Positions 52,823 to 54,560 of a DNA stretch of 64,000 nucleotides are shown here, in pieces. The position numbers and the translations under genes are program-made. This DNA comes from an uncultured bacterium (GTDB lineage Bacteria > Oederibacteriota > PGYV01 > Palsa-1178), in NCBI GenBank assembly GCA_937889595.1, contig CALAOR010000016.1, positions 1 through 64,000 of the forward strand, in the 5' to 3' direction. The notes beneath the pieces are model-generated. The model saw nothing but the letters and a program-made list of their open reading frames with translations, ran no database searches and was not told where the DNA came from. How positions within the stretch are numbered: position 1 is the first letter of the stretch; each line of letters begins with the position of its first letter.

Positions 52823-53032
52823 TAAATGGCGCTGGCTGAAAACCCTCATTAATATGACGCGTTTCCTTTCGTGTCCGGTACGAACTTTAATTTTTCTATG
52901 GCCTTTGCGCGATTCCCCTATATAATATAAGCGCAAAATCCATAGAAAAATTAAAGTTCGTACCGGACACGATTTATCATAAAGGCTTTTCGGTCAGTCT
53001 CTAAATAGTGCTGGCGGAAAAATCCTTATGAC
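52823..53032. mobile_element. long-hairpin element with flanking imperfect direct repeats
   Basis: Perfect 32-bp inverted arms (52870-52901 and 52940-52971, outer end CGTGTCCGGTACGAACTTT), an inner 7-bp stem TTTGCGC/GCGCAAA and a 20-nt AT-rich loop containing TATAAT. Similar 31-35-nt sequences (TAAATGGCGCTGGC, TAAATAGTGCTGGC) flank it in direct orientation. No open frame. It looks like a non-autonomous mobile hairpin or REP-like element; the transposase is unknown. Confidence 0.55.
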
Positions 53033-53295: not shown

Positions 53296-53296
53296 A

Positions 53297-53979
53297 ATCG
53301 AGTAGGAGGCGGGCGTTAGCCCGCCGTCCTCTCACACCACCCTGCATGCGGTTCCGCACAGGGCGGTTCCTTTCGCTTGCGAATCTGCTCTACAGTTCTT
53401 GCCTACGTATTGACTTGCTCGACACAATACTGGCCTCACTGCGTTCTTTAGGTTACTATCCGCTTTACCCCGTTTGGTTTGGTGCACTCAACTACCGCAT
53501 CCTGTTGACTCCGTCAACTTCGTACGTTTAAGCGACGGCGTTTCAGCCGCTCTTGCTGCTCCTCCACCATTTGTACGACATAAAGACTGACCTTAGCGAT
53601 TGGTTCGGTCCTTCGCCCATGTCTTTGAGCTACTATGACCTCGGCTGACTCCTTGCGGTTCGTATTCCGTATCACTACGGTTTTACCTTCTCAGGAAACC
53701 AGCAAGGCCTCCCCAGATATCACGCTTCACTTTCATGCTTATACCTGCCACATTTACTTCCGTATCTTCTGTGCAAGAACTGGACTTTGAGTGTGTTGGC
53801 CCTCTTATCCGATACGTCTGCCTCACATGTGGTTTCTGGTCGTCAGGCCAGCAGTTTGCCTATGGCTTCCTTCAGATTCCGCCTCACGGCGGACACCCTT
53901 GCCACGTCGGCTAACGATTCCCCTTGCCGGGCTCGTAGGGAACTTTCATCCCTTAGCGATAGCGCCATGCTGGGCGTAC
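53297..53979 (-). mobile_element. ORF-less group II intron
   Basis: About 683 nt on the minus strand. It starts GTACGCCCAGC, next to the T-run of the rplS terminator. Domain I-type sequence (GGCAAGGGTGTCC, GAGGCGGAATCTGAAGG) lies near 53855-53910. Domain V is at about 53336-53367: ACCGCCCTG/CAGGGTGGT with a G-U wobble in the CGC triad, a 2-nt bulge and a GAAC loop. Domain VI is at 53297-53333: GAG-AGGA and GGCGGGC stems around a TAAC loop with a bulged A at 53303, the branch point. No reverse-transcriptase frame is present; a full intron would carry about 1.5 kb more in domain IV. Splicing would need a protein from elsewhere. Confidence 0.82.
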
Positions 53980-53980
53980 C

Positions 53981-54006
53981 AAAAAAAACCCGGGATTTCT
54001 CCCGGG
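53981..54006 (-). terminator. terminator of the rpsP-khpA-trmD-rplS operon
   Basis: CCCGGG stem (54001-54006 and 53989-53994 read on the minus strand), 6-nt loop, eight Ts (53981-53988). It ends one base before the intron 5' end. Confidence 0.9.
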
Positions 54007-54041
54007 CTTTGTTATCACAGTTATTATCCTTCCGGATAATA

Positions 54042-54560
54042 TTACTTTTTCTTGCCTGCTTTTTTGTCCGCCGCTTTCTGGGCCGCGTGTTCGGCTTTTC
54101 TTTCGTCTTTGGATTTTGCCTTTTCCGCCTCTATCTCGGTTGCTTCCTTGTTTATCTCCACGGAATCCACGGACAAAGTGTCTGAAGCGAACTTTTTCGC
54201 TTCTTTCTTGGCTTTTCTTCCCGAAGTATCGCGCAGCGAATAAAGTTTTGACTTCGTGGAATCACCCTGTTTTACAACGGTGATCGACTCTATCATGGGC
54301 GAGTGCATGGGGAATGTCCTCTCCACTCCGATCCCGCCGGCCGAGATCTTCCTTACGGTTATCATCGAATCAAGGTTTATGCCTTTTTTCGCGATCAGAA
54401 TACCTTCAAAAGCCTGTATCCTCTCCTTGCCGCCTTCCAGGATCCTGGTGTTAACCTTGATCGTCGAACCTACCGCGAGCTTGTTTGCGTCCCTGCCTTT
54501 TTTCTTGTATGTTTTTTCTACAATTTCCCGGATGTTTGCCATTTTAAGAGCTCCTTTCAT
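54042..54560 (-). CDS. rplS: 50S ribosomal protein L19
   Basis: Large-subunit protein at the 30S interface. Residues 1-115 match L19 (MANIREIVEKTY, GSTIKVNTRILEGGKERIQAFEGI, in part, and GVERTFPMHSPMIESI). The remaining ~57 residues are a Lys/Ala/Glu-rich tail, making the protein 172 residues against the usual ~115. Last gene of the rpsP operon; its start overlaps trmD by 17 nt. The extended tail fits other Lys-rich tails in this genome, such as S16. Confidence 0.95.
   Translation of the reverse strand: MKGALKMANIREIVEKTYKKKGRDANKLAVGSTIKVNTRILEGGKERIQAFEGILIAKKGINLDSMITVRKISAGGIGVERTFPMHSPMIESITVVKQGDSTKSKLYSLRDTSGRKAKKEAKKFASDTLSVDSVEINKEATEIEAEKAKSKDERKAEHAAQKAADKKAGKKK

Follow-up and report, generated by a model that had tools for sequence, protein, structure and literature searches.

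Class C (IIC) group II introns target intrinsic terminators (PMC4424553; PMC8919778, which places types g6, U1, and U2 behind terminators as well). The IIC RNP recognizes a DNA stem-loop and a few IBS bases and then reverse-splices behind it, and structures of IIC introns show that the maturase binds with high affinity to the D4a arm (PMC10190682). Introns that lack the open reading frame (ORF) for an intron-encoded protein (IEP) are also on record. An intron that has lost its ORF but retains DIVa can be driven by the IEP of another intron (PMC2882425), IIC introns without an IEP splice mostly by hydrolysis (PMC7161350), and 888 of the 13,041 group II introns in a survey with RNA models were ORF-less (Miura 2022, PMC8919778). 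C.te.I1 has been called the sole known bacterial exception in having no related IEP (PMC4424553). Here, we describe a compact ORF-less intron found in a window of 64,000 nucleotides, the whole stretch of DNA that was analyzed.

Anatomy, target site, and class of the intron

The features of the locus are as follows.

54042 to 54560, minus strand: rplS (50S ribosomal protein L19), the upstream gene, an ORF; a search of 14 related genomes found homologues in 12
53981 to 54010, minus strand: intrinsic terminator of rplS, an 11-bp stem and T-run, sequence GGGTTTTTTTT
53980 to 53982, minus strand: IBS1 (TTG), the last 3 nt of the 5' exon, pairing with EBS1, with covariation over 39 introns
53297 to 53979, minus strand: ORF-less group II intron assigned to class C, 683 nt, GUACG...CGAU, from Rfam matches, EBS1-IBS1 pairing, and an empty site
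53722 to 53893, minus strand: domain I core (RF02001), 132.4 bits, E value 4.6e-27, above the Rfam gathering threshold
53796 to 53798, minus strand: EBS1 (CAA), a loop, pairing with IBS1
53608 to 53686, minus strand: RF01998 match, the end of the domain I-IV core including domain III, 56.8 bits
53504 to 53518, minus strand: domain IV hairpin GUUGA-CGGAG-UCAAC, supported by covariation and probably part of D4a, the maturase-binding arm
53337 to 53366, minus strand: domain V, CCGCCCUG/CAGGGUGG, CGC triad with a G-U pair and a UG bulge, from RF00029
53300 to 53333, minus strand: domain VI, bulged A at 53303, from RF00029
53148 to 53296, minus strand: 3' exon, a palindromic repeat that lies next to a terminator and has its outer arm, TTTG^TGGCTGT, split by the intron, with copies in its own and a same-genus genome

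The initial annotation had proposed a group II intron here, with a domain V and a domain VI and with domain I-type sequence upstream. Three Rfam group II models match the minus strand in order from 53979 to 53297, each over its full model length and above the gathering threshold, and the domain I core is the RF02001 match at 53893 to 53722. The RF00029 match (53368 to 53297) reaches 44.1 bits (cut-off, 40), and the CGC triad with its G-U wobble, the 2-nt bulge, and the bulged A are as that annotation described them. Domain V reads CCGCCCUG-UGCG-GAAC-CGCA-UG-CAGGGUGG, the bulge being UG, and the intron RNA ends in AU. None of 20 dinucleotide shuffles was as stable as the whole-intron fold (z = -4.0). 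The 5' end, GUACG, departs from GUGYG; GUAYG occurs in 8 of 65 relatives. The UG bulge is found in 29 of 95 ORF-less relatives (about 30%), whereas none of 8 ORF-bearing introns has it, a sample too small to link the bulge to ORF loss. The GAAC loop of domain V was considered as a sign of decay and rejected because most relatives read share that loop region.

The insertion point lies one base past the T-run of the rplS terminator (54010 to 53981), directly behind it as originally noted; the position is intergenic, and the intron interrupts no gene. The same arrangement of rplS and terminator occurs in genomes G003 and G002. On the other side, the repeat begins at base 53296, and an intact copy of it sits behind another terminator of the same genome (G000:C78; 98% identity over 149 nt). 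This uninterrupted copy reads ...CATTTG^TGGCTGTTAGC, and the window flanks joined without the intron read ...TTTTTTTTG^TGGCTGTTAGC. When 289 combinations of ends were scored for restoration of the repeat arm and match to G000:C78, the joint 53980/53296 was the best, with 11 of 12 nt of the repeat arm (TTTGTGGCTGT versus ACAGCCACAAA) and 9 contiguous nt of G000:C78. The empty arrangement is seen in further copies (e.g., L204, ...CCTTTTTTTTTGTGGCTGTTAGC), and removing exactly 683 nt yields an intact repeat as found elsewhere in the genome. Because the best joint restores the repeat arm, we conclude that the intron ends are exact, at the predicted positions 53979 and 53297, and that the intron is younger than the repeat. 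Homologues share these ends and occupy the same kind of site. An attC target, as for IIC-attC introns, was rejected because the hairpin upstream is that of the rplS terminator; attC boxes are not apparent by eye in the 3' repeat.

Within the window intron, IBS1 and EBS1 pair at 3 of 4 positions, giving a short EBS1 interaction of 3 bp. Among 39 nonredundant relatives, EBS1 formed 2.36 of 3 pairs with the intron's own exon, compared with 1.17 ± 0.12 of 3 in an exon-shuffled control (maximum, 1.64 in 5,000 trials), and almost all relatives lie directly 3' of a terminator-like hairpin. One ORF-bearing relative, L027, has an IEP with RT and GIIM domains, in which an endonuclease domain was not found; this protein scores 464 bits to the GsI-IIC RT and 341 to the IIC maturase of E. 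rectale (7uim), versus 133 to the IIA protein LtrA and 122 to the maturase 6me0. Class membership had been left undecided. From the terminator insertion, the CGC triad, the short EBS1, and the relatives' IEP being nearest those of GsI-IIC and E. rectale, we assign the window intron to class C, with some room left for types g6, U1, and U2 since it has no IEP of its own.

The repeat that forms the 3' exon lies directly behind an intrinsic terminator in all of the approximately dozen copies read (53296 to 53148 on the minus strand, L047, L049, and L203 to L211), which come from the host genome and a same-genus relative. Its 11-bp outer arm covaries (99% of cells paired, 20 two-sided cell changes, 0 of 500 shuffles) and is followed by a conserved core, GTTAGCTTTGAGGARCTNGAGCGACGAAAAGCTTAC, and a second hairpin, ATACCCGCTCAAGTCCCG...CGGGACAAGCGGTAT; TTGAGC and GCTCAA could form a pseudoknot. 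The repeat had no Rfam match and was not found in plasmids or viral contigs. It may be a new structured RNA; alternatively, it may be a single-strand-transposed element. A separate near-perfect, MITE-like palindrome at 52869 to 52972 (42-bp arms, 95%) has dozens of copies across the host and same-genus genomes.

The missing reverse transcriptase and the relatives of the intron

The longest minus-strand frame within the intron is 53 amino acids, and there is no protein gene, in agreement with the earlier remark that no reverse transcriptase (RT) is encoded. No convincing IEP remnant was found in domain IV: the best score, 26.6 bits, was equaled by 3 of 200 dinucleotide shuffles, and we do not claim it. 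The case for an origin by ORF loss is for this reason built on the relatives. A search of the host genome for a related IEP, which the initial annotation had suggested, returned none, either with the RVT_1 profile (E ≤ 1; assembly 98.96% complete) or with an IEP query, although an assembly of 93 contigs may lack an RT intron that is present in one copy. No RT was found in 13 other genomes of the order; 11 of 45 genomes of the phylum contain one, which doubles as a positive control for the search. In the host genome, RF02001 exceeds its cut-off at the window intron only, making it a single copy, and it does so nowhere in the rest of the order, no other genome of which has the intron. Contig ends of the host genome held no further RF02001 or IIC domain V matches, which would be the sign of a collapsed multicopy element.

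Elsewhere in the same genome, contigs C23, C32, and C91 (L003, L004, and L005) carry the 3' parts of another group II intron, all truncated on the 5' side, with an AGC-type domain V and an enlarged domain VI. These three decayed fragments hint that the lineage had an active RT in the past. A plasmid search with their domain V gave short D5 matches only.

One genome per species was scanned for a domain III ... domain V pattern, with the spacing restricted to ORF-less size. The scan returned 88 stretches with an ORF-less layout, from Pseudomonadota, Bacillota, Bacteroidota, Acidobacteriota, Verrucomicrobiota, Nitrospirota, and other phyla; viral scans yielded L066 only. ORF-less relatives lie behind terminators on both chromosomes and plasmids, the latter including a putida megaplasmid (L024) and a Persicobacter plasmid (L028), and they are multicopy, at different terminators, in P. 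borbori, U. thermosphaericus, and P. pasinlerensis. No RVT_1 match at E ≤ 0.001 was present in 12 of 40 genomes with ORF-less IIC introns, in a collection without contigs below 3 kb, so that an ORF-bearing intron of 2 kb, if collapsed, would not be represented. Isolates among these RT-free genomes are Rhodanobacter glycinis, Weizmannia acidilactici, Providencia heimbachae, Paenibacillus taihuensis, Evansella sp., and Anoxybacillus flavithermus. In U. thermosphaericus, pieces of RT lie at contig ends.

A tree of the ribozymes interleaves ORF-less and ORF-bearing introns, with sister pairs within genomes (L135/L174, L095/L166, L083/L163, and L153), and a pure ORF-less clade was rejected on these grounds. 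Because the two forms mix and pair up within genomes, we conclude that the ORF has been lost many times over. One ORF-less relative (L006) still keeps about 50 codons of the IEP C terminus (62% identity, E value 5e-17). The window intron forms a long branch in this tree, whose sampling by the ORF-less pattern means that it cannot tell whether the branch is purely ORF-less.

Domain IV of the window intron does keep a small hairpin. In an alignment of 21 sequences (the window intron and 20 ORF-less and ORF-bearing relatives), each of its 5 bp shows two-sided changes, and the loop is near CGGAA. Pairing occurs in 90.5% of cells, versus 56.6% in shuffled alignments, and the covariation score is 0.835 versus 0.230 (0 of 500 shuffles as high), with slid controls all far lower. 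Read against the IIC structures (PMC10190682), the conserved hairpin is probably part of the maturase-binding D4a.

Several other copies were noted. Unannotated ORF-less IIC introns lie behind terminators in IncP (L023, korB-kfrA) and IncC (L022, upstream of traL) conjugative backbones. The IIC intron of Pseudomonas phage DVM-2008 (L026) is decayed, lacking domains II-III and retaining a remnant of the IEP C terminus; it has been noted as decayed before (PMC12350094). In the same phylum as the window, one genome that has an RT carries, at a contig start, an ORF-less IIC-like intron of a different subtype (L201, G015:C50). Another (G017) has a GUACG-starting IIC intron behind a terminator at positions 1890 to 2200 of L008; this copy is cut after domain III and was rejected as an ORF-bearing sister in the phylum. 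Downstream of it, a tRNA-like sequence (anticodon region CAT) is interrupted by a stretch resembling a group I intron (RF00028, 28.3 bits, below the cut-off).

Proposed history and alternative explanations

Our best reading, to which we assign a probability of roughly 0.8, is that the window holds an ORF-less IIC intron that was mobilized in trans and is now stranded. A class C ancestor would have lost its RT/maturase gene by deletion inside domain IV and then moved in trans. The rplS terminator hairpin and the TTG at the end of its T-run would have been recognized through IBS1-EBS1, and reverse splicing into DNA at this point would have split the repeat already in place; the cDNA may have been made by an IEP supplied in trans or by the intron's own IEP before the ORF was lost. 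Having arrived behind the rplS terminator, and with no RT left, the intron would be stranded. Such a copy, lying behind a terminator, would presumably be rarely transcribed and do little harm, with at most slow splicing by hydrolysis. The initial annotation had offered a trans-mobilized or stranded ribozyme; stranding fits the present state (no RT in the genome or order, a single copy), and trans mobilization is retained as the likely past route because the ORF-less relatives are multicopy. A related driver IEP in the same genome, as in TeI3-like trans mobilization, was not found.

We consider it unlikely that the intron is instead dead and decaying, its catalytic RNA damaged. Its long branch, its GUACG start, and the truncated L008 copy in the same phylum would fit such decay, but every domain is present with full-length covariance model matches, the triad, bulge, branch A, and EBS1 pairing are intact, and GUAYG and the UG bulge are common in relatives. 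We are more doubtful still that the intron remains mobile by means of a compatible IEP that is in the cell but absent from the assembly or that arrives occasionally by plasmid or phage: it is a single copy, no RT was found in its genome or order, and no contig end betrays collapsed copies, even if its multicopy relatives at different terminators in three species, the plasmid and phage copies, and the retained D4 hairpin all point toward mobility.

The prospect of an independent self-splicing intron kept without any IEP, like C.te.I1, seems poor. It would account for the host genome having no detectable IEP and for core scores near those of L006 (132, 57, and 44 versus 142, 61, and 45 bits). 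However, no gene is interrupted and therefore nothing selects for splicing, IEP-less IIC introns mostly hydrolyze (PMC7161350), and there is no sign of vertical inheritance since the other genomes of the order lack the intron. A chance structure or misassembly is already refuted by the RF02001 E value, the exact empty site, and the homologues with the same ends in like sites.

Beyond the preferred reading of a trans-mobilized, stranded copy, we tentatively raise a wider one that may well not hold, in which these introns form a recurrently born nonautonomous retroelement that loses its ORF repeatedly, keeps the D4 hairpin, and spreads behind terminators across phyla via plasmids and phages, often in RT-free hosts.

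Comparison with known systems

The window intron has the architecture, CGC triad, short EBS1-IBS1 pairing, and terminator target of the terminator-targeting IIC introns (B.h.I1, O. iheyensis, GsI-IIC, and E. rectale), and its nearest ORF-bearing relatives encode an IIC-type IEP. It differs from them in having no IEP ORF, in its length of 683 nt, and in that no RT was found in its genome or order. ORF-less introns are already known; less expected were how often the compact layout occurs and the presence of a class C example in an RT-free order. The window intron belongs to a widespread, little-discussed group of enzyme-less copies. SINEs in eukaryotes move without encoding their own enzyme, and it becomes testable whether small introns do likewise and whether a foreign IEP takes them up by means of the D4 hairpin.

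The TeI3 family of T. elongatus (PMC2882425) is the precedent for trans mobilization, with the ORF deleted in domain IV and the DIVa arm kept, and its many copies at good EBS/IBS sites have a counterpart in the relatives of the window intron. In contrast, TeI3 is of another class, is not terminator-directed, and has its driver IEPs in the same genome. The ORF-less introns of Miura 2022 (PMC8919778) are the same kind of object; the part of that survey available to us does not describe a shared domain IV element or RT-free hosts. C.te.I1 of Clostridium tetani is likewise ORF-less in a genome without an IEP-related gene, but it lies within a surface-layer protein gene and splices, whereas the window intron is intergenic and only a putative splicing intron. 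The window intron is a clear candidate for another such exception, in class C, and the scan suggests that there are many more.
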